Source: Longimicrobium sp.
GTDB lineage: Bacteria; Gemmatimonadota; Gemmatimonadetes; Longimicrobiales; Longimicrobiaceae
DNA length: 41,587 bases
Assembly: GCA_036377595.1 (NCBI GenBank)
Contig: DASUYB010000208.1
Location: forward strand, 1 to 41,587
Direction of reading: 5' to 3'
A program made the translations under genes and the position numbers. Shown here piece after piece: positions 13,261 to 40,163 of the stretch; positions within the stretch are counted from its first letter, which is position 1; each line of letters opens with the position of its first letter. The notes below the pieces were generated by a model. That model was not told the DNA's origin and ran no database searches. It worked only from the letters and a program-made list of their open reading frames with translations.

Positions 13261-13388
13261 GGTGCGAAAGTGCGAGAGTGCGAGGGTGCGAGAGGGAAAT
13301 CCTACGCTGCGCGGGATTGTCGCACCAGCCAGGCTCCGCGGCGGCGGCGATTCACTCTCGCACTTTCGCACTCTCGCACCTTCGCACT
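13261..13388. repeat. Palindromic repeat of 8-bp GTGCGARR units, copy 1
   Basis: The left arm from 13261 carries tandem GTGCGAAA/GTGCGAGA/GTGCGAGG units, and the right arm (13352-13388) is their approximate inverse. The element begins three bases from the acetyltransferase start codon and reaches the VOC stop codon, so it makes up essentially the whole intergenic space. Related copies are at 30607-30699 and 37894-37987, with a half copy at 39092-39122. Confidence 0.8.
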
Positions 13389-27920: not shown

Positions 27921-28139
27921 TCAGTCGAGCCCCGCCTCCTTCATCTTGTCGCGCAGCGACTTGGGCCGCATGTCCGTCCAGACCTCCTCGATCCAGGCCA
28001 GGACCTCGGGCTTCAGGCCGTGCTTGCCGGCGTCGCGCCACCCCAGCGGCAGCTCGCGGTCGGCGGGCCAGATGGAGTACTGCTCCTCGTCGTTCACCAC
28101 CGCCATGTAGATGGTGGTATCTTCGCGTTCGTCGCTCAT
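27921..28139 (-). CDS. MbtH-like protein
   Basis: A 72-aa MbtH-like protein, the small partner that binds and activates or stabilises NRPS adenylation domains. The signature is nearly complete: [28 protein letters not shown], then the conserved Trp in [15 protein letters not shown] short non-conserved N-terminus (MSDEREDTT) and a C-terminal extension ([13 protein letters not shown]) flank it. It lies between the exporter (53 bases upstream) and the dehydrogenase; a GC-rich hairpin-prone stretch (about 27885-27912) separates it from the latter. It indicates that at least one A domain of the NRPS is MbtH-dependent. Confidence 0.95.
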
Positions 28140-28192
28140 CTCGTGCGCTCTCAGGGTAGATGGGTTGGGTTGGACTGCGATGGAGCCGCGGG

Positions 28193-29614
28193 TCACCCCG
28201 CGACGGCCAGCTCCGCGCCGGCCTCGTCGGGCGCGGCGGCGGGGTGCGGCGGCGACTGCGGATGCGGCGCGTCGGCGACGTCGCGCTCGACGTGGCGGAT
28301 CCGGGGAACGAGCCAGGCGATGGTCGCGGTCAGCATCACCAGCGCGCCGAGGACCACGAACATCAGCGCCACGCCGCGCCCCTTCCCCACGCCGACCAGC
28401 GTGCCCGCGGTGCCGGCCAGCGCGCCGCCGGGGGCCATCAGCGGCTCGAAGACGCGCTCGGCCAGCGGGCCGGCGATCAGCACGGCCAGCGGGATCATCG
28501 ACATGAACGCCATCCGCCGCACCGCCATCACCCGCCCCATCAGCGCGTGCGGGGTCTTGCTCATCCAGATGGCCGAGCTGCTGGTCGCCAGCAGCGGCGA
28601 GGCGAACGCCCAGGCGAACATCGTCGCGGCGACCCAGGGGATCGACGTCCTCACCCCCGTGGCGGCGATGCAGGCGCCGACGATGAACACCGCGCCCAGC
28701 ACCCCGGCGATGCGGTGCCTGGGCCCGCCCCACGCGCCCACGACGATGCCGCCGGCCACCGCGCCCACGCCCACCGCCGCCTGGACGGTGGCCAGCGCCA
28801 CGGGCGAGCCGAAGCTCAGGATCATCGGCGCCAGCAGGGGATTGACGAACCCCGTCCAGAAGTTGACGAGCGCGACGAAGGCGAGCAACCCCAGCAGCCC
28901 CGGCCGCTCGCGCACGAAGCGCCACCCCACCGCCGCCTCGGCGCCGAAGCGGCGCGCGGCGGCCAGCCAGGCGGGACCGTCGTCTTCCGTCGACGCGACC
29001 TCCACGCGGGCGGGGCGGGGGATGGCCACCAGCGCCAGTCCCGCGATGGCGGCCAGGTAGGTGACGCCGTCGACCACCATGATCCCGCCGAGGCCGATCG
29101 TGACCAGGAGCGCGCCGGCGACCACCGGCGCCACGATCATGCTCACCGGCCCCAGCAGCTGCATCAGCCCCACCGCGCGTCCGTACTGGTGGCGCGGAAC
29201 GATGGAGGCCATGGCGGCGGTGAAGGCGGGCTCCTGGAACGAGGAGATGAACGAGGCGAGGGCCGAGGTGACGAAGAGATACCACACCTCGAAGTGGCCG
29301 GCCAGCACCAGCGCGGCGGTGGCCAGCGTCAGCAGCGCCGACCCCGTGTCGGCGGCGATGAGGACGCGGCGGCGGTCCCAGCGGTCCACCAGTGTTCCCG
29401 CCACGGGCGAGAGGAGGAGCGAGGGGAACATCCACGCGAAGATCAGCAGCCCGAACTGCTCGGCCGAGCCGGTCTTCTGGTACACGGCCACGGCCACGGC
29501 GAACGAGGTCAGCCCCGAGCCCAGCGCCGACACGAGCTGCCCCGCCCAGATCAGGAGGAAGGGGCGCAGCTCGCGCACGGACTGGCGGAAGGATTCCCCT
29601 CGCGCTGGCTTCAT
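28193..29614 (-). CDS. MFS exporter, EntS-like (MFS_3)
   Basis: A 473-aa major facilitator protein with about 12 membrane segments. The first ([28 protein letters not shown]) and the loop [15 protein letters not shown], the A-motif region between helices 2 and 3, are typical of the enterobactin-exporter-like MFS_3 group. The C-terminal 40 residues are a cytoplasmic tail rich in Pro/His/Ala. Placed between NRPS and mbtH, it is the probable exporter of the peptide product. ATG at 29614 is preferred to the longer reading from 29725, whose extra residues are not membrane-like. Confidence 0.9.
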
Positions 29615-29931
29615 CGGCTCCAGAAAGTCACGGAGCCCGTCCTGACCGGTGGGTTCAGGGCGGGCCTGCAACCGCTTCGAGATCATCGGGTTGGCGCATC
29701 CGCGCGGCGCGGAGCGCACGATCACGCCTCCGACTTGGCCGCGGCCGGGGGGCGCAGGGCCGCCAATCTAACACCTTTGCCGCGCGTTTTGAATCACCCC
29801 CGTACGGATTCGCCAATCCGGCACAGCGTGCACGCGCGGCGTCGTCGTCGCATGCGCATCGGCCGCCGCGGCGGGAAACGCGGAGCGGGCGCCGGGAGGG
29901 TGGCGCCCGCTCCGTTTTCGCCAGCGGCGGA
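29615..29931. promoter_or_regulatory. Gap between NRPS and exporter with terminator/attenuator
   Basis: This 317-bp space holds a 13-bp perfect stem just after the NRPS stop (29881-29914) and a less GC-rich stretch at 29770-29830 that could be a promoter for the exporter and downstream genes. No gene was seen. The cluster may thus be two transcription units. Confidence 0.4.
29881..29914 (-). terminator. Hairpin terminator after the NRPS gene
   Basis: CGGAGCGGGCGCC (29881-29893) pairs perfectly with GGCGCCCGCTCCG (29902-29914). On the minus strand GCGTTTCCC follows; on the plus strand GTTTTCG follows. It lies 17 bases past the NRPS stop and is probably partial or bidirectional. Confidence 0.6.
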
Positions 29932-32900
29932 TCAGTCGCCGCCGGCGCGCTCGGCCAGCAGCCGCTCGGCCTCCTCCTCGCTCAGGCTCTCGAGCCAGGC
30001 CAGCAGCTCGTCGTCGGGCCCGGCGGCGGCGCGGCGCTCGTCCACCAGCGCCGCGATCCCCCGCACCGTGGGGTGGTCGAAGATGACGCCGACGGGGAGC
30101 TCCACCCCCAGCCGCGCGCCGACGCGGGTGAGGATGCGCGTGGCGCGGAGCGAATGGCCGCCCAGGTCGAAGAAGTCGTCGGTGGCGCCCACGCGCTCCA
30201 GCCCCAGCACCTCGCGCCAGATCTCCGCCACCGCCTCTTCGGTCGCCGTCGCGGGCGGCGCGAAGGCGGCCTCGGGGTGCGCGGCGCCGGCGTCGGGCGC
30301 GGGGAGGGCGCGGCGGTCGACCTTGCCGCTGGGGGTCTTCGGCAGCGCGTCGAGCACGGTGAAGGTCGCGGGGATCATCCACGCCGGGAGGCGGCCGGCT
30401 AGGTGCTCGCGCAGCTCGGCCAGAGAGACCGTCCGCCAGTGCGCGGGCGCCACGTACGCGGCCAGCTGGCGCTCGCCGCCGTCCTGGCGCGCGACGACGG
30501 CGGCCTCGCCCACGGACGGGTGCTCGTGCAGCACCGACTCGATCTCCCCCGGCTCCACCCGGAAGCCGCGGATCTTCACCTGGTCGTCGGCGCGGCCCAG
30601 GAACTCGAGTGCGAAAGTGCGAGAGTGCGAAGGTGCGAAAGTGGTTTCGTCGCGAGGTGAGTCGCTTTCGCACTCTCGCACTTTCGCACTCTCGCACTCC
30701 TTCCACCTCGTCCGATCCCCCGTCCGGTACATCCGCGCGCCGGGCGTGGGGGAGAACGGGTCGGGGAGGAAGCGCTCGGCGGTGAGCGCCGGACGGCCCA
30801 GGTAGCCGCGCGAAAGCCCTTCGCCGCCCGCGTACAGCTCGCCGGGGATGCCGGCGGGGATGGGGCGGAGCGCCTGGTCCAGCACGTACGCCGTGGTGTT
30901 GGCGACGGGGCGGCCGATGGGAACGCCCGTGGCGCCGGGGGGGACGGCGCGCACCTCGTGCCAGCTGGTGTAGGTCGTGTTCTCGCTGGGTCCGTAGATG
31001 TTGACCAGCCGCACGGAGGGGCACGCCTCCACCACGCGGCGGAAGGCGGCGGGGTCGGCCGCCTCGCCGCCGGCCAGCAGGTGGCGCAGCGGCGCAAAGG
31101 TCTCGGGCGCCTCGTGCGCCACCTGGTGGAAGAGCGCGCTGGTCAGGAACATCGCGTCGATCCGCCGCTCGCGGATCACCGCGGCCAGACGGTGCGGCGA
31201 GAGGACGTCGTCGCGGTCGACGACGACCAGCGTGCCGCCGTTGGCCAGGGGCGCCCACACCTCCCAGGTGGCCGCGTCGAACGACGGCGCGGCGGTGTGG
31301 CCGATGCGGTCGCCCGGCCGCGGCTGCAGGTAGTCGGCCCCGCGCACCAGCCGCACGAACGCGCGGTGCGTGAGCATGCTCCCCTTGGGCGCGCCGGTGG
31401 AGCCGGAGGTGTAGACGACGTAGGCGACGGCGTCCGAGCCGAGGTCCGGCGCAACTGGTTCGCCCGCGGGCGCATCATCGAGGCGCGCGAGGGAGAGGAC
31501 GGGGCCGTTCCACCCCTCCAGCGAGGCGGGGACGCGGTCGCGCACCACCAGCGCGGCCGCGCCGGAGTCCGCGAGCATGTAGCTCAGGCGCTCCGCCGGA
31601 TACGCGGGATCGAGGGGGACGTACGCGGCGCCCGCCTTGAGCGCGCCGAGCATCCCCATCGCCTCCTCGGGCGAGCGCTCCATCGCCACGGCCACGCGGC
31701 CCTCGGGGCGCACGCCCATCGCCCGCAGCGCGGCGGCGATGCGGTCTCCCGTCACGTCCAGCTCGGCGTAGGTGACGGTGCGCGCGCCGTGCTCGATCGC
31801 CGCCGCCTCGGGCCGCAGCCGCGCCTGCTCGGCGACCAGCGCGTGCAGGGTGGCCTCGCGCGGGTAGTCCGTCGCCGCGCCGGCGAGGGCCAGGACGGCG
31901 CGCTCCTCCTCCGCGGGGAGCATGCGGAGACGGGAGACGCGGGTCGATGGATCGGCGAGCGCGTCGGCCAGCACCGCCTCGAAGTGGCCGATCATCCGCG
32001 CGACGGTGGCCGCGTCGAACAGGTCCTCGGCGAACTCCCAGATCATCACCACCTCGCTCCCCGCGTGCTGGTGGGCGCGGGGGATGACGATGACGTTGAG
32101 GTCGAACTTGGCGGACTCGTTCCCCAGCCCCTCCTCGATCTCAATCTCCGCATCTCCAAGCTCGAGATCGGGATAGGGCGCGTGGTGGAAGTTGAAGGCG
32201 ACCTGGAAGACGGGGAGGTGCCCGCGCGAGCGCTCGGGGTGCACTGCGGCCACGATCTCCGCGAAGGGCACGTCCTGGTGCTGATACGTCTCCACCGCGG
32301 CGGTGCGGACGCGCTCCACCAGCTCCTCGAACGCCGGGTCGCCGGAGAGGTCGGCGCGGATGGGGATGGTGTTCACCACCATGCCGATCAGGTCCTCGCT
32401 CTCCCGCAGCCGCCGCCCCGCGACGCCCGAGCCGACGCAGAAGTCCGTCTCGCCGGTGTAGCGGTGCATCAGCGCCTCGAACGCGGCGAACAGCGTCATG
32501 AACAGCGTGACGCCGTGGCGCCGGCTGAAGGCATCGGCCGCGTCGTACACCGCGCGGGACAGGCGCACGCGGTGGCTGCTGCCGCGGAAGCTCATCTCCG
32601 CCGGGCGCGGCCGGTCCGCCGGGAGCTCGAGGACGGGGGAGACGCCGGCCAGGCGGTGCTTCCACCACTCGAGGTGCGCGCGCGCCTCGTCCGTCTCCAT
32701 CCACGCGCGCTGCCACGCCGCGAAGTCGCCGAACTGCACGGCGGGCTCGGAGAGATCGTGCTCGCGGCCGCGCGCGAAAGCGTCGTAGATGGCCTTCAGC
32801 TCGCGCAGGAACACGCCGAAGCTCCACCCGTCGTGCACCAGGTGCTGCTCGATGGCCAGGAAGACGTGCTCGTCGTCCGCCAGCCGGAACAGCGTCCAGC

Positions 32901-35043
32901 GGACGAGGGGAAGCGCCTCGAAATCGAACGGCCTGCGGAACTCCTCCCCGAGCCGCCGCTCCAGCTCCGCCCGCCGTTCATCTCCCGAAAAGGCGGTGAG
33001 ATCGACGAGCGGGAGATGGACGGTCCACGGCGCGTGCACCACCTGCGCGGGCGCGCCGTCGACGGCGGGGAAGGTGGTGCGGAAGATCTCGTGGCGGCGG
33101 ACGATCTCGCCCAGCGCGCGCTCCAGCGCTTCCCGGTCCACGGCGCCGCGGATGCGGACCGTCGCCTGGAAGTTGTAGGAGCGCATGTCCGGCTTCAGGT
33201 GGTGGAAGAACCAGACGGTCTCCTGCGGGAAGGAAAGCGGGAGCGGCCGGTCGCGCGGCGCGCGCGGGATGCGCAGCGCGGTGTCGAGCGGGGACGCGGC
33301 GTCGGCCAGCTGCCGCGCCAGCTCTTCCACGTTCGGCATGGCGAAGAGCGTCCCCAGCGGCAGCTCGATCCCCATCCGCTGGCGCACGCGCGCGACGATC
33401 TGCGTGGCCAGCAGCGAGTGGCCGCCCAGCGCGAAGAAGTCGTCGCGGACGCCGACGCGCTCCACGCCCAGCACCTCGCTCCAGATGCGGGCGAGCGCCG
33501 CCTCGTCGGGGGTGCTCGGCGCGACGTACTCCGCGCCGGCCTCGCGCTCCGGCTGCGGGGCTGGAAGCGCCAGCCGGTCGACCTTGCCGTTGGGCGTGTG
33601 CGGGAGCTCGGACAGGAAGGTGAACGCGTCCGGCACCATGTACTCGGGGACGTGCCCGCGCAGGTGCTCGCGCAGCTCCGCCGTCCCCGGCGCGGCGCCG
33701 TCGGGGACGACGTACGCGGCCAGGCGCTTCTCCCCCCGGTCCTCCCACGCGGTGACCACGGCTTCGCGCACGGCGGGGTGGGCGGCCAGCGCGGTCTCGA
33801 TCTCCCCGGGCTCCACGCGGAAGCCGCGCACCTTCACCTGGTGGTCCATCCGCCCCAGGCACTCCAGGTCGCCGTCGGGAAGGACGCGGCCGAGGTCGCC
33901 GGTGCGGTACATCCGCGCGCCGGGGGCGCCCAGCGGGTCGGGGCGGTAGCGCTCGGCCGTCATCCCCGGCGCGCCCAGGTAGCCGCGGCTGACGCCCGCG
34001 CCCGCCATCCACACCTCGCCCGTCTCGCCGTCCGGCACCGGCCGCAGCGCCGCGTCCAGCACCCGCGCCGTCGTCCCGCTCACCGCGCGGCCGACGGTCA
34101 TCGCCCGCTCACGCCCCTTCTCCACCTCCTTGCAGGTCGAGTAGGTGGTGTCCTCCGTCGGCCCGTAGAGGTTGAGCACGCGGTCCACGTGGCCCAGCGC
34201 GTACAGCCGCTGCGCCAGCTCGTTGCGCAGCGGCTCGCCGCCCAGGAGGAAGGTGCGCGCGCAGGCGGGGATGGCGCCCATGCGCAGCAGCTCGGCCGCC
34301 GCGCTGGGAACCATCGCCACGGTGTGGACGGGCTCGCCGAGCGAGGCCAGGGAGAGCGCGTTCTCCACCAGCACCAGCGTGCCGCCCCAGCACAGCGTCC
34401 CGAAGATCTCCGCGATGGAGACGTCGAAGCAGACGGAGGTGGAGGCGAGTACGGACGCGCGCTCCTCGTCCGTCACCGTCGCCCGCAGCCAGCGGAGCAC
34501 CTCGACGGTGTTGCGATGCTCGATCTGCACCCCCTTTGGCCGCCCGGTCGATCCCGAGGTGTAGATGACGTACGCCAGGTTCTCCGGCCGCACCTCCACC
34601 TCCGGCGGCGAGGACGGCCGCGCGGCGATCTCCTCCCGGTCGACGTCGACGCAGACGGCGGCGCCGCGGTACTGCGGCACCCGCTCCGCCAGCGCGCCGG
34701 TGGTGACGAGGAGGGGGACGCGCGTGTCGCCCAGCATGTACTCCACGCGCTCGGGGGGATACGCGGGGTCGAGCGGCACGTATGCCGCGCCCGCCTTCAG
34801 CACCGCGAGCAGGGCGACGACGAGGTCGGGGGTGCGGGGGAGGAAGACGCCGGCGGGGACCTCGGGGCCGGCGCCGAGCGCGCGGAGGTGGTGGGCCAGC
34901 CGGTTGGCGTGCGCGTCGAGCTCGCCGTAGGCGAGGGTCTCGCCGCGCCAGCGGAGCGCGCAGCGGCCGGGATGCGCCGCGGCCTGGGTCTCGAAGAGGG
35001 AGTGGATGCAGCCGGAGGGGAGGGCGTTCGCGTTCATGTCCAT
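29932..35043 (-). CDS. Two-module nonribosomal peptide synthetase, A-T-C-A-T
   Basis: A 1703-aa synthetase. A1 spans about 15-495 (YTSGSTGRPKG 161-171; NLYGPTEDTTYS; MYRTGD 378; hinge GRMDHQVKVRG; PNGKVDR with Lys487). PCP1 has GGHSLLA (Ser543). The condensation domain is about 600-1040, with EQHLVHDGWS near 733 holding the catalytic second His but Gln in place of the first. A2 is about 1060-1560 (YTSGSTGAPKG near 1211; NIYGPSENTTYT; PSGKVDR) and PCP2 has GGHSLRA near 1627. No thioesterase or reductase domain follows; the last 35 residues are an acidic tail. By-eye codes are DVAMLGLTYK (A1) and DAWFLGITYK (A2); substrates are not securely assignable. A2 carries a 31-residue repeat-derived insertion (1449-1479). 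ATG at 35037 is an alternative start. Confidence 0.93.
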   Translation of the reverse strand: MDMNANALPSGCIHSLFETQAAAHPGRCALRWRGETLAYGELDAHANRLAHHLRALGAGPEVPAGVFLPRTPDLVVALLAVLKAGAAYVPLDPAYPPERVEYMLGDTRVPLLVTTGALAERVPQYRGAAVCVDVDREEIAARPSSPPEVEVRPENLAYVIYTSGSTGRPKGVQIEHRNTVEVLRWLRATVTDEERASVLASTSVCFDVSIAEIFGTLCWGGTLVLVENALSLASLGEPVHTVAMVPSAAAELLRMGAIPACARTFLLGGEPLRNELAQRLYALGHVDRVLNLYGPTEDTTYSTCKEVEKGRERAMTVGRAVSGTTARVLDAALRPVPDGETGEVWMAGAGVSRGYLGAPGMTAERYRPDPLGAPGARMYRTGDLGRVLPDGDLECLGRMDHQVKVRGFRVEPGEIETALAAHPAVREAVVTAWEDRGEKRLAAYVVPDGAAPGTAELREHLRGHVPEYMVPDAFTFLSELPHTPNGKVDRLALPAPQPEREAGAEYVAPSTPDEAALARIWSEVLGVERVGVRDDFFALGGHSLLATQIVARVRQRMGIELPLGTLFAMPNVEELARQLADAASPLDTALRIPRAPRDRPLPLSFPQETVWFFHHLKPDMRSYNFQATVRIRGAVDREALERALGEIVRRHEIFRTTFPAVDGAPAQVVHAPWTVHLPLVDLTAFSGDERRAELERRLGEEFRRPFDFEALPLVRWTLFRLADDEHVFLAIEQHLVHDGWSFGVFLRELKAIYDAFARGREHDLSEPAVQFGDFAAWQRAWMETDEARAHLEWWKHRLAGVSPVLELPADRPRPAEMSFRGSSHRVRLSRAVYDAADAFSRRHGVTLFMTLFAAFEALMHRYTGETDFCVGSGVAGRRLRESEDLIGMVVNTIPIRADLSGDPAFEELVERVRTAAVETYQHQDVPFAEIVAAVHPERSRGHLPVFQVAFNFHHAPYPDLELGDAEIEIEEGLGNESAKFDLNVIVIPRAHQHAGSEVVMIWEFAEDLFDAATVARMIGHFEAVLADALADPSTRVSRLRMLPAEEERAVLALAGAATDYPREATLHALVAEQARLRPEAAAIEHGARTVTYAELDVTGDRIAAALRAMGVRPEGRVAVAMERSPEEAMGMLGALKAGAAYVPLDPAYPAERLSYMLADSGAAALVVRDRVPASLEGWNGPVLSLARLDDAPAGEPVAPDLGSDAVAYVVYTSGSTGAPKGSMLTHRAFVRLVRGADYLQPRPGDRIGHTAAPSFDAATWEVWAPLANGGTLVVVDRDDVLSPHRLAAVIRERRIDAMFLTSALFHQVAHEAPETFAPLRHLLAGGEAADPAAFRRVVEACPSVRLVNIYGPSENTTYTSWHEVRAVPPGATGVPIGRPVANTTAYVLDQALRPIPAGIPGELYAGGEGLSRGYLGRPALTAERFLPDPFSPTPGARMYRTGDRTRWKECESAKVRECESDSPRDETTFAPSHSRTFALEFLGRADDQVKIRGFRVEPGEIESVLHEHPSVGEAAVVARQDGGERQLAAYVAPAHWRTVSLAELREHLAGRLPAWMIPATFTVLDALPKTPSGKVDRRALPAPDAGAAHPEAAFAPPATATEEAVAEIWREVLGLERVGATDDFFDLGGHSLRATRILTRVGARLGVELPVGVIFDHPTVRGIAALVDERRAAAGPDDELLAWLESLSEEEAERLLAERAGGD
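30607..30699. repeat. Palindromic repeat of 8-bp GTGCGARR units, copy 2, inside the NRPS gene
   Basis: Two 35-bp arms (30607-30641 and 30665-30699) of tandem GTGCGARR units in inverse orientation, four mismatches between them, with a 23-bp centre. The element is 93 bp, exactly 31 codons, and is read through in frame as ECESAKVRECES...APSHSRTFAL. It replaces the five or so residues (LPDGx) that link MYRTGD..W to LEFLGRADDQ in ordinary A domains. Confidence 0.9.
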
Positions 35044-36450: not shown

Positions 36451-36883
36451 GTCACCTTTGTGGGGTCCGCGATCCTTCGCGGAGCAGGCGGCGGACGGGA
36501 TGCCGCGTTTCCTGAGCCTGGACCGGCCGCGGCGGGTGGACGATGGGCGTCCGTGCGGCCGGATGAACTACTGACAGAGTGGCGCGTCGGTGGCGGTCGC
36601 GAACCACCCCGCCCGACGCGCGGACCGCAAGCATAACCACGTGTACGATTCAGGGCAAGTGCAGGCCGGTAAACTGATACACAAAGAACACGACGCGTCC
36701 CAAAGCTCACGGAATCTCTCGGAAACAAATGTAACCATGCGCACGGAAGGGCCGCCGGGACCCGCACGCAGCGGCGGGAAACATCCAGATTCGCGGACGG
36801 GACGCGAGGTGCGGCGGGAGAGGCTTCCCCGCGCCGCTCCGTTCACGGGAGACTGGACTCGCGCGGCGGGAGAGATTAGTTTG
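36451..36883. promoter_or_regulatory. Divergent control region of the NRPS cluster
   Basis: 433 bp between the first biosynthetic gene and the regulator at 36884. The part from about 36625 to 36735 is markedly AT-richer than its surroundings and is where promoters for both directions would be expected, but no reliable -35/-10 pair was found. GGGAGAG at 36868-36874 precedes the regulator ATG at 36884. No gene was seen. Confidence 0.5.
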
Positions 36884-37840
36884 ATGTACGTCTCGCGTAT
36901 GACGCGAGACGACACCCGAATGACGTACCTCAACCGGGAACGACAGGATATGCAACCGGTTCTCCGTCCGCTCATCGTGCTGCACTCCGACGCGGTGTTC
37001 AAGGAGCGCCTGCGCCGCATCGGCAGCCAGCGCTTCAAGAGCCAGTTCGTGAACGACTGGGACGGCCTGCGCACGGCGCTAAAGGAAGCGCCGCCCGCCG
37101 CGCTGGTGGTGGTGGACCCGTACACCCACAGCTACGGCGCCGAGGCCGAGCTGGCGCCCGAGCTGCGCTCGCTGCTGTGGGAGTACCCCACCGCCACGGT
37201 GATCGCCGCGCTGGAGGTGCGGCGCCAGCGCGTGCGCGACCTGCGCACGCTGGGCGAGTGGGGGGTGAAGGAGGTGATCGCGCTCGACGAGGAGGACACG
37301 CTCGAGGCCATCAGCCGCCGCCTGCGCGCCGCGCAGGGCCGGCCGCTGCAGAGCCTGCTGGAGCGCTCGCTGCCGGGAACGCTGAGCGGCCGCGCGCGCG
37401 CGCTGCTGATGGCGGCCGCCGAGGTGGTGGCCGAGGGCGGCCACGGGCGCGACCTGGCGGCCAGCCTCCGCCTGTCGGAGCGCACGCTGCTGCGCTGGGC
37501 CGAGCAGGCCGACCTCCCGCCGCCGCGCCGCATCCTGGCGTGGATGCGCGTCCTCCTCGCCTGCGAGCTGCTGGACGACCCCGGCCAGACGGTGCTGAGC
37601 GTGGCCTACACCTGCGGCTACGCCAGCGACAGCTCGCTGCGCCGCGCGGTGCAGGAGTTCACCGGCGTGCTGCTGACCGAGCTGCGGCAGGAGGGCGCCT
37701 TCGCCACCGCGTCGGAGAAGTTCCTGGCCGAGCTGGAGGACACTCGCGAGAGCGGCCGCGCCCGCCGCAAGGCCGAGCGCGCGGCGGCCCGTGCCGCCGC
37801 CGTGGCGGCCGCCACCGCCGCCGCCGGCGCGCCGAACTGA
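36884..37840 (+). CDS. AraC-like regulator with receiver-like N-terminal domain, right flank of NRPS cluster
   Basis: A 318-aa paralogue of the regulator at 22205-23089. Matching blocks include LIVLHSDAVFKERLRR, ALVVVDPYTHS, LRSLLWEYPTATVIAALEV, LGEWGVKEVIALDEEDTLEAISRRLRAAQGRPLQ, GRDLAASLRLSERTLLRWAEQADLPPPRR and the AraC motif TVLSVAYTCGYASDSSLRRAVQEF. The receiver-like domain again lacks a canonical phosphorylation set. The C-terminus ends in an Arg/Ala-rich helix. The start is uncertain: ATG at 36884 has GGGAGAG upstream; ATG at 36950 (MQPVLRP) matches the paralogue better, and would leave a 23-bp palindrome at 36889-36911 in the leader. It is divergent from the cluster and is its probable pathway regulator. 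Confidence 0.8.
   Translation: MYVSRMTRDDTRMTYLNRERQDMQPVLRPLIVLHSDAVFKERLRRIGSQRFKSQFVNDWDGLRTALKEAPPAALVVVDPYTHSYGAEAELAPELRSLLWEYPTATVIAALEVRRQRVRDLRTLGEWGVKEVIALDEEDTLEAISRRLRAAQGRPLQSLLERSLPGTLSGRARALLMAAAEVVAEGGHGRDLAASLRLSERTLLRWAEQADLPPPRRILAWMRVLLACELLDDPGQTVLSVAYTCGYASDSSLRRAVQEFTGVLLTELRQEGAFATASEKFLAELEDTRESGRARRKAERAAARAAAVAAATAAAGAPN
36889..36911. promoter_or_regulatory. Perfect palindrome at the start of the cluster regulator
   Basis: CGTCTCGCGT (36889-36898) and ACGCGAGACG (36902-36911) are exact inverted arms around ATG. It is either an operator or RNA hairpin in the leader (if translation begins at 36950) or part of the N-terminal coding sequence (if it begins at 36884). 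Confidence 0.5.
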
Positions 37841-37884: not shown

Positions 37885-37893
37885 TTCGTCGTT

Positions 37894-37987
37894 GAGTGCG
37901 AAAGTGCGAGGGTGCGAGGGTGCGAGGGTGCGAAAGTGCGCCAGGTTCAACGCACTCTCGCACTTTCGCACCTTCGCACTCACGCAC
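37894..37987. repeat. Palindromic repeat of 8-bp GTGCGARR units, copy 3
   Basis: A left arm of tandem GTGCGAAA/GTGCGAGG units (37896-37940) faces a right arm of inverse units (37951-37987), with about 10 bases between. It lies just after the regulator terminator. Same family as the insertion inside the NRPS gene. Confidence 0.8.
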
Positions 37988-37998
37988 CGGAAAAGAGA

Positions 37999-38027: not shown

Positions 38028-38442
38028 GACTCGGGGGTCGGGCAGCGCCGAAGGGCGTCGGGGGCGGGGAGGTGGTGCGGGTAGGCGGGGCGGGCGGTTG
38101 CTGCGGGTTCTCGGTTTGATACTGCCAGGGTCCTGCGGTCGCTGTCCCCCCGGTTCTTCGCTCGCATGACAAAGCAATCGCGAGGCCAGACGCGGCCCGT
38201 CTGGCATCTCGTTGCGGCGCAATCACTTGGATTTTTGGTGGCTCGGAAACAGGTGGGGCGGTGGGACCTGGGGAGGACACCCTTTGGGACATCGGCGCCT
38301 CATCTCCCTCCATCCGTCGTGGGAGATGGCTCCAAGTGGTGCGGAAATCGCCCCGCGGTGCTCTGGAGCGGCCCGCCGGGTGGGTGTAAGTTCAGGAACC
38401 GGCTCGTTCCGGGGTGGAATTCTCGTCTCGGTGAAGGAACGG

Positions 38443-39087
38443 ATGGCCAGGAAGTACGGGATCAGGGAAGTGTTTCCCACGCTGCAGGGCGAGGGCGCGC
38501 AGGCGGGGTCGCCCGCGGTGTTCCTGCGCTTCGCGGGGTGCAACCTGGGCTACGACGTGTGCCCCTGGTGCGACACCGACTGGGTGAAGGCGGTCTACAG
38601 CGAGGACGTGGACGGCACCCTCGCGCTGGTCCGTGCCGCGGCGGAGGAGGGGTTCGGCGGCGAGCGGCCGGGCCTTCTCCTCGTGGCCACCGGCGGCGAG
38701 CCCAGCCTCCAGCTCGACCGGCCGCTCTCCGACGCGCTGCGGGCGCGGGGATACCGCATCTCCATGGAATCCAACGGCTCGCGCCCGGTGGACCGCTCGC
38801 TGGTGGACTGGCTCACCATCAGCCCCAAGCAGCCCGAGTTCGCGCAGAAGGAGGGCGACGAGCTGAAGCTGCTGTTCAGCGGCACCGCCGCGCTCGGCAT
38901 CACCCCCGACGTGGCCGCGGTGCGCCGCATCGCCGCGGGAACGCGCTTCGGCCACTACTTCCTGCAGCCGATCGACATCCCCGCGCACGGCGGGCCGAAC
39001 TACGAAGAGACGGTGCGCGCGGTGATGGAGCTCGGTCCGCCGTGGCGCCTGTCGGTGCAGACGCACAAGGTGATGGGGATCCCCTGA
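38443..39087 (+). CDS. queE: 7-carboxy-7-deazaguanine synthase (QueE-like radical SAM)
   Basis: A 214-aa radical SAM enzyme of the QueE family, which contracts 6-carboxy-tetrahydropterin to 7-carboxy-7-deazaguanine on the way to queuosine. IREVFPTLQGEGAQAGSPAVFLRFAGCNL is the family opening. The cluster Cys are in CNLGYDVCPWCDTDW, i.e. C-x6-C-x2-C, where many radical SAM enzymes have C-x3-C-x2-C. LLVATGGEPSLQ is the GGE SAM-binding motif, followed by SMESNGSRPV and the C-terminal FLQPIDIPAHGGPN and SVQTHKVMGIP. ATG at 38443 has AAGGA close upstream; a GTG at 38431 is possible. No other queuosine genes lie nearby. Confidence 0.88.
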   Translation: MARKYGIREVFPTLQGEGAQAGSPAVFLRFAGCNLGYDVCPWCDTDWVKAVYSEDVDGTLALVRAAAEEGFGGERPGLLLVATGGEPSLQLDRPLSDALRARGYRISMESNGSRPVDRSLVDWLTISPKQPEFAQKEGDELKLLFSGTAALGITPDVAAVRRIAAGTRFGHYFLQPIDIPAHGGPNYEETVRAVMELGPPWRLSVQTHKVMGIP

Positions 39088-39091
39088 GCCG

Positions 39092-39122
39092 AAGTGCGTG
39101 AGTGCGTGAGTGCGGGAGTGCG
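39092..39122. repeat. GTGCGTGA/GTGCGGGA half repeat upstream of the HDAC gene
   Basis: Tandem 8-bp units (AGTGCGTG, AGTGCGTG, AGTGCGGG, AGTGCGAC) related to one arm of the GTGCGARR palindromes, immediately after the queE stop. It supplies the only canonical start codon (GTG at 39102) for the following gene. Confidence 0.6.
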
Positions 39123-40163
39123 ACGGAGCCCGTCGTCGCTTCCGCCTGCTGTCCCCTGTACCCTGTTCCCTGTCCCCTGAAGGCGTTCTACACGGACCGC
39201 TTCGTCCTTCCCCTTCCGCCGGGGCACCGCTTCCCGATGGTGAAGTACCGCCGGGTGCGCGAGCGCTGCCTGGAGGAGGGGATCATCGCGCCCGCGGACC
39301 TGGCCGAGCCGCCGGCCGCGGCGTGGGACGAGCTGGCCCTGGCGCACGACCGCGCCTACCTCGACGCGGTACGCGAGGGCGCGCTCCCGCCGCTGGCCCA
39401 GCGCCGCATCGGCTTTCCCTGGAGCCCGGAGATGGTGGAGCGCTCGCGCCGCTCCGCGGGGGCCACCATCGCCGCCTCGCGCGTCGCCCTGGCCGAGGCG
39501 GCGGAGCGGGGATGGGGCGTCGCCGCCAACCTCGCGGGCGGCACGCACCACGCCGGCCCCGACCACGGCGAGGGCTTCTGCGTGTTCAACGACGCCGCCG
39601 TCGCCGCGCGCGTCCTCCAGCGCGAGGGCGTGGTCCGCCGCATCGCCATCATCGACTGCGACGTGCACCAGGGGAACGGCACCGCCGCCATCTTCGCGCG
39701 CGACCCCACCGTCTTCACCTTCTCCATCCACGGCGCGCGCAACTTCCCCTTCCGCAAGGAGCGCGGCTCGCTCGACGTCGATCTCCCCGACGGCGCGGAG
39801 GACGACGCCTTCCTGGCCGCGCTGGAGCTCCATCTTCCCCACGTGCTCGACGACTTCCGCCCCGAGCTGGCCATCTACCTGGCCGGCGCGGACCCGTGGC
39901 GCGACGACCGCTTCGGCAGACTGGGGATGACCAAGGAAGGGCTGGCCGAGCGCGACCGCTACGTCCTCCACCTCCTCCGCGACGCCGGCGTCCCCACGGC
40001 GATCGCGATGGCCGGCGGCTACGCGCGCGACACCGAGGACACCGTCGACATCCACGTCACGACTCTTCGCATCGCCGCGGCGATGCACCGGCAGAACGGC
40101 AGGTCTCACACGGAGCCACCGTCGCCCTCGGGGCAAACCCGCCCCCGGGTGGACCTCCGCTGA
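39102..40163 (+). CDS. Histone deacetylase family (AcuC/class IV-like) deacetylase
   Basis: A zinc amidohydrolase of the arginase/deacetylase fold, acting on acetyl-lysine or acetyl-polyamines. AFYTDRFVLPLPPGHRFPM is the family start; NLAGGTHHAGPDHGEGFCVFNDAAVAA carries the tandem active-site His; IIDCDVHQGNGTAAIF has zinc-binding Asp/His; LAGADPWRDDRFGRLGMT holds the third zinc Asp; AGGYA is near the end. The match to class IV/AcuC-like enzymes is good. The start is problematic: family similarity begins at KAFYTDR (39180), preceded by repeat DNA, and the only in-frame ATG/GTG/TTG upstream is GTG 39102 inside a repeat. A CTG at 39177 is another possibility. The last 20 residues are non-conserved. 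Confidence 0.85.
   Translation: MRECGSATEPVVASACCPLYPVPCPLKAFYTDRFVLPLPPGHRFPMVKYRRVRERCLEEGIIAPADLAEPPAAAWDELALAHDRAYLDAVREGALPPLAQRRIGFPWSPEMVERSRRSAGATIAASRVALAEAAERGWGVAANLAGGTHHAGPDHGEGFCVFNDAAVAARVLQREGVVRRIAIIDCDVHQGNGTAAIFARDPTVFTFSIHGARNFPFRKERGSLDVDLPDGAEDDAFLAALELHLPHVLDDFRPELAIYLAGADPWRDDRFGRLGMTKEGLAERDRYVLHLLRDAGVPTAIAMAGGYARDTEDTVDIHVTTLRIAAAMHRQNGRSHTEPPSPSGQTRPRVDLR
39148..39179. repeat. Short tandem CCCTGTNC repeat before the HDAC domain
   Basis: Degenerate units (CTGTCCCCTGTACC, CTGTTCC, CTGTCCCCTG) run up to the first conserved codon of the deacetylase. The shape is that of a low-complexity intergenic repeat and not of coding sequence. Confidence 0.5.

Follow-up and report, generated by a model that had tools for sequence, protein, structure and literature searches.

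The second adenylation domain (A2) of an NRPS encoded in the 41,587-nucleotide stretch of Longimicrobium DNA analysed here (the window) contains, in frame, a palindrome built of GTGCGARR octamers, and at least 60 copies of the same repeat family occupy this one codon position, which lies between motifs A7 and A8; the modules that carry them are unrelated and come from six related species, and the colonisation is recurrent and apparently harmless. The explanation that we consider probable is that of an RPE-like in-frame palindrome, tolerated by the protein, that spreads among A domains via short copy events.

An octamer palindrome in the A2 hinge

The NRPS gene (29932-35043, minus strand; A1-T-C-A2-T, 1703 aa) reads open, without a stop, through a 93-bp type I element at 30607-30699(-) that contributes about 31 residues (KECESAKVRECESDSPRDETTFAPSHSRTFAL). 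Two 35-nt arms, with GTGCGARR units on the plus strand at 30607-30641 and YYTCGCAC units at 30665-30699, are 89% complementary around a 23-nt spacer (30642-30664), and nearly the same loop recurs in other hinge copies; across the window, a three-octamer pattern gave 21 matches against 0.07 expected from shuffles. A2 itself (30253-31869(-)), assigned by Pfam, an AlphaFold model and PDB fold matches, retains intact motifs A7 (YRTGD, 30715-30729(-)) and A8/hinge (GRADDQVKI, 30571-30597(-)). The complete interval between them (30598-30714(-)) measures 39 codons, compared with 13 in A1 of the same gene (33856-33894(-); LGRVLPDGDLECL) and in almost every A domain examined that has no insert. Counted from MYRTGD to LGR there are 12 residues in A1 (LGRVLPDGDLEC) and 38 in A2, and since the insert replaces the LPDG turn between A7 and A8 the net gain over an ordinary hinge is 26 residues. 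Repeat search and translation thereby confirm the stop-free palindrome, the difference in spacing and the loss of the turn described in the initial annotation. An MFS transporter (in ORF 28193-29725) adjoins the NRPS and an MbtH-like gene (end of ORF 27921-29435) lies beside it, within 27921-29725 of the window.

How much the open frame says about selection depends on the octamer itself. GTGCGARR has no stop in any of the six frames, and as its period of eight is not divisible by three, 24 bases encode the same eight residues in every frame, namely a VRECESAK-like peptide on one strand and a TFALSHSR-like peptide on the opposite one. That a lone copy consists of whole codons and lacks stops is therefore weak evidence of selection, and the evidence on in-frame status comes from recurrence, not from any single copy.

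The initial annotation had placed the same family at two intergenic sites of the window, and both copies are real: one, at about 13262-13387, lies outside genes near the 5' end of the S13-peptidase ORF, 81 bp before the start (13181) of its longest version, and the other, at 37893-37988, separates the HTH_18 ORF (36590-37840) from ORF 38166-39101. A short GTGCGTGA/GTGCGGGA array is also present at 39094-39122, where the latter ORF joins a histone-deacetylase-like ORF (39102-40163). No known RNA family was found in the window.

Recurrence and movement of the insert

The window's own genome (G000) holds 299 matches to the octamer-array pattern and many palindromic copies of about 70-130 bp, and the exact pattern was present in 6 of 395 genomes of the phylum, five from this genus and a sixth with one match. 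We regard the family as genus-restricted and mostly intergenic. In-frame, stop-free hinge copies, counted by profile search with hinge inserts, number about 24 in G000, at the same codon position of different A domains, and about 28 in the sister genome G003, with 6 in G002, 3 in G001 and 1 each in G008 and G009; the table of hinge copies has 60 entries and lacks at least two that the profile found, the total being at least 60. The genome search proposed in the initial annotation did find further in-frame copies; that annotation had missed that the site is occupied in dozens of A domains from six species. In coding frames of at least 1000 aa, 57 octamer arrays in long NRPS frames lie at the hinge and 3 elsewhere, a count that covers the examined contigs of draft genomes, chosen for their NRPS content. 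Two of the three non-hinge arrays also read in frame, in a C-domain loop just before HHxxxDG (G003:C152:12065-12096) and in a T-C linker (G003:C65:8054-8090). Long direct octamer arrays of 10-24 units were seen in G000 on contigs C82, C104, C74 and C84, some at contig ends, where they are probably responsible for assembly breaks.

The inserts fall into three types, of which type I consists of GTGCGARR and type II of GTGCGGRA/GTGCGTGA units, and type III, from G003, is a type I insert that encloses another palindrome (CCCTCCCCCAG..TGGGGGAGGGACAGGCG) as a nested element. This second palindrome (CCCTCCCCCAGNCNGTTTTGGGGGAGGGACAGGCG) is unrelated to the octamers and lies in frame within the G003 hinge inserts (C152 hinge copies, 2521-50277; C65:2122/12247/36327); it also occurs in frame in the A-sub of other modules (G000:C65:53194), and outside NRPS frames (G000:C65:59684, C118). 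Loss appears to have taken place as well. On contig C151 of G003, four hinges of normal length look like in-frame excision scars (AG(A/G)TGG...AGTGCG remnants), one at 98684 (LARWKESAVLEFL), resembling the deletion of a type II copy, and three in neighbouring domains at 89219, 92378 and 86057, with AG(A/G)TGGAGTGCG remnants.

Orthologues of the window gene in G003 (L047, 83% identical), G001, G008 and G014 (L048, L049 and L050 being the other loci) have the short turn and no insert, so that alignment with homologues in other genomes finds the insert absent, and the unrelated loop of equal length that the initial annotation had allowed for is not what all homologues carry. The 12-residue hinge of the orthologue (RVRWHGGALEFL), possibly a scar, holds no octamer remnant. 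On a tree of 172 A-cores, insert presence requires no fewer than 36 changes (starred branches force 26 of these), and types I, II and III scatter as they do in shuffles. Presence and type of the insert do not track A-domain phylogeny, and because of this scatter one ancestral insertion followed by module duplication is insufficient as an explanation.

Several features of the inserts and their surroundings instead point to movement of the block between unrelated A domains, and between hinges and intergenic sites. Inserts are up to 92% identical between domains whose flanks are 58-77% identical, and where sites are orthologous between G000 and G003 (five cases, flanks 77-88%) the arms of the insert are mostly less alike than those of same-genome paralogues, the exceptions being two right arms. 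AGA/AGG, otherwise rare Arg codons in these NRPS genes, immediately precede the insert position on its 5' side in 18 of 28 insert-bearing and 4 of 30 empty domains of G003 (p=1e-4; the four empty ones look like scars), and in 4 of 22 against 0 of 36 in G000. Moreover, the entire 25-nt loop of hinge copy C108_77736 is identical to that of a copy lying upstream of a ChrB_C gene at a distance of 60 bp. In pairs whose inserts resemble each other the near flanks are barely closer (0.80 vs 0.75) and far flanks differ about equally; any conversion tract would accordingly be very short, and large tracts are unsupported. The candidate effect of raised core/sub recombination in insert-bearing domains was set aside as inconsistent, type II exceeding insert-free domains and types I and III being mixed and mostly lower.

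Effect on the adenylation domain and competing explanations

AlphaFold models of 45 A domains from the window and the examined loci had a mean pLDDT of 89 and a pTM of 0.84, and in the insert-bearing models the insert forms a low-confidence loop (mostly pLDDT <60) between two strands, followed by a normal hinge and A-sub. As modelled, the insert is compatible with a normal A-domain fold, from which it is predicted to emerge as a solvent-exposed, disordered loop, in line with the suggestion of the initial annotation that the domain can fold around an insert in a surface turn. The PDB fold matches are NRPS A domains, including the methyltransferase-interrupted 5WMM (interrupted at a different site), the sequence alignment with LgrA breaks exactly at the insert position (residues 389-391/421), and the best alignment stretches of nearly all other solved chains also end there. 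Motif A8 is intact in 59 of the 59 insert-bearing domains scored, and most of these domains show the A10 lysine pattern, the exceptions being sequence variants or containing something additional, either an A-sub insert or a further domain.

A-core dN/dS over 13 pairs was 0.27-0.55 for insert-bearing pairs and for most others, insert-free ones included. Between the window gene and G003, A2 has diverged faster than A1 (A-core dN/dS 0.46 vs 0.23; dN 0.18 vs 0.08 in the core and 0.14 vs 0.01 in A-sub), which allows a mild or partial relaxation of A2. The same orthologue pair would favour decay, i.e. that the insert has inactivated A2 or altered its activity, as the initial annotation had offered as one option; with catalytic motifs intact, dN/dS still below 1, a good predicted fold and giant frames that stay open through at least 60 stop-free, in-frame copies, however, we regard decay as quite unlikely. 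On the sequence and model data, inactivation of A2 is unsupported and mild relaxation possible, and what stands of the initial reading is an intergenic-type palindrome lying in frame, absent from orthologues and compatible with the fold. A domesticated role in the mRNA, in which ribosomes would be slowed by a strong hairpin between A-core and A-sub to allow co-translational folding, suits the location at a subdomain boundary, and the hinge copies do form much more stable folds than shuffled sequences (-60 to -77 kcal/mol, z -5.3 to -8.6). Nevertheless, A.C arm mismatches are equally frequent in and out of register, so that selection for hairpin pairing is not seen, and the insert is absent from most A domains of these genomes; such a role seems very improbable. 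That the structure is an assembly artefact at a repeat, to which a draft of 208 contigs, some starting within octamer arrays, might lend itself, is a negligible prospect given the same structure at the same codon, always in frame and inside contigs, in six independent genomes.

A more serious, though still somewhat unlikely, alternative is that the element inserts independently at preferred A7-A8 DNA, one candidate point being close to the LEFL-encoding GTTC, a motif similar to the element's outer end CGCACTTCNGTTC, with no spread from hinge to hinge. The exact loop match between a hinge and an intergenic copy, the two octamer types at one site, the further insertions in the C-domain loop and the T-C linker, and the several intergenic copies that end in CGCACTTCAGTTC or CGCACTTCTGTTC, as some hinge copies do, are all in keeping with this. 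Independent insertion does not, on the other hand, sit easily with the absence of the LPDG turn from all copies or with the rare AGA codon preceding the insert in unrelated domains, and a transposase for the octamer family was not found.

We favour tolerance combined with copying between hinges, in which the octamer palindrome would be one copy of a short repeat family acting like RPEs in coding DNA. Because the octamer has no stop in any frame, a frame-preserving copy would read as a flexible polar loop, and copies accumulate in NRPS genes at the solvent-exposed A7-A8 beta-turn, directly before the hinge, where we infer that the domain tolerates the loop and keeps its function. After founder insertions, the block would have spread to many A domains, probably because near-invariant A7/A8 coding sequences together with the octamer arrays allow short recombination or gene conversion from hinge to hinge, and it would also have been shortened, taken in nested elements and been deleted, the frame being kept each time. 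It is improbable, if conceivable, that the A7-A8 loop is instead a dedicated exchange site kept for its benefit, the palindromes there supplying portable homology and so driving A domains to recombine with one another where core and sub meet (or setting a co-translational pause).

Comparison with known systems

Interrupted A domains such as 5WMM, with its methyltransferase, likewise have extra sequence near the hinge, and the added part in them is a folded catalytic domain lodged between A8-A9, A2-A3 or A4-A5 (PMC8097286); the insert described here sits between A7 and A8, is disordered and contains no Pfam domain, and is not an interruption of this kind. Exchange of A-domain sequence, for which conserved core motifs may act as hotspots, was described by Baunach et al. 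2021 (PMC8097286), the difference being that A-core recombination moves the substrate pocket and the octamer case moves a short loop. REP/BIME and MITE-type repeats, including the enterobacterial RU, are abundant intergenic hairpins with occasional in-frame copies in genes (PMC2759123, PMC10969869), from which the octamer family differs in having no known partner enzyme. Mobilisation as a RAYT-dependent REP was considered and rejected: both Y1 (RAYT-type) transposase genes (G000:C130:32727-33065 and G000:C192:1533-1874) are flanked by a different, AGTCCGCCTTCGCGGACT-like repeat of their own, the nearest octamer array at one locus being some 1 kb distant, and no mobility enzyme for the octamer family was identified.

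Palindromes at the NRPS A7-A8 site, or one hinge loop occupied across dozens of megasynthase modules, were not found in the open-access literature searched; in-frame palindromic elements as such, which the initial annotation had missed, are established in Rickettsia and Wolbachia as RPEs (PMC3767692, PMC10969869). The present case documents RPE-like invasion of protein-coding DNA outside these two genera, at one codon position in dozens of modules from six species, together with empty sites, nested insertions and candidate in-frame deletion scars, so that selfish tolerance and copying by conversion become testable against each other within one protein family. The A7-A8 turn may also serve NRPS engineering as a natural permissive insertion site, accommodating up to about 85 extra residues.

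The Rickettsia RPE family proper is defined by sequence homology to the elements RPE-1 to RPE-10, with their ATGAC-type or other established motifs, and membership is unlikely because the GTGCGARR octamers are confined to one genus of another group. The resemblance lies rather in behaviour. RPEs are short palindromic repeats found both between genes and in frame within them, where they encode solvent-exposed peptides, and different element groups lie near or at a shared site in orthologues (PMC3767692, PMC10969869). The octamer family likewise comprises many copies of a palindrome, somewhat shorter on average than the 100-150 bp or so typical of RPE-like elements, lies outside genes and in frame without breaking them, and is predicted by AlphaFold to encode an exposed, fold-compatible peptide. 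It is set apart by its sequence and phylum and by its 8-bp units, which yield one peptide per strand in any frame, and, whereas RPEs are scattered over many unrelated genes, it sits in the same homologous loop of NRPS modules that are paralogues of one another and number in the dozens.
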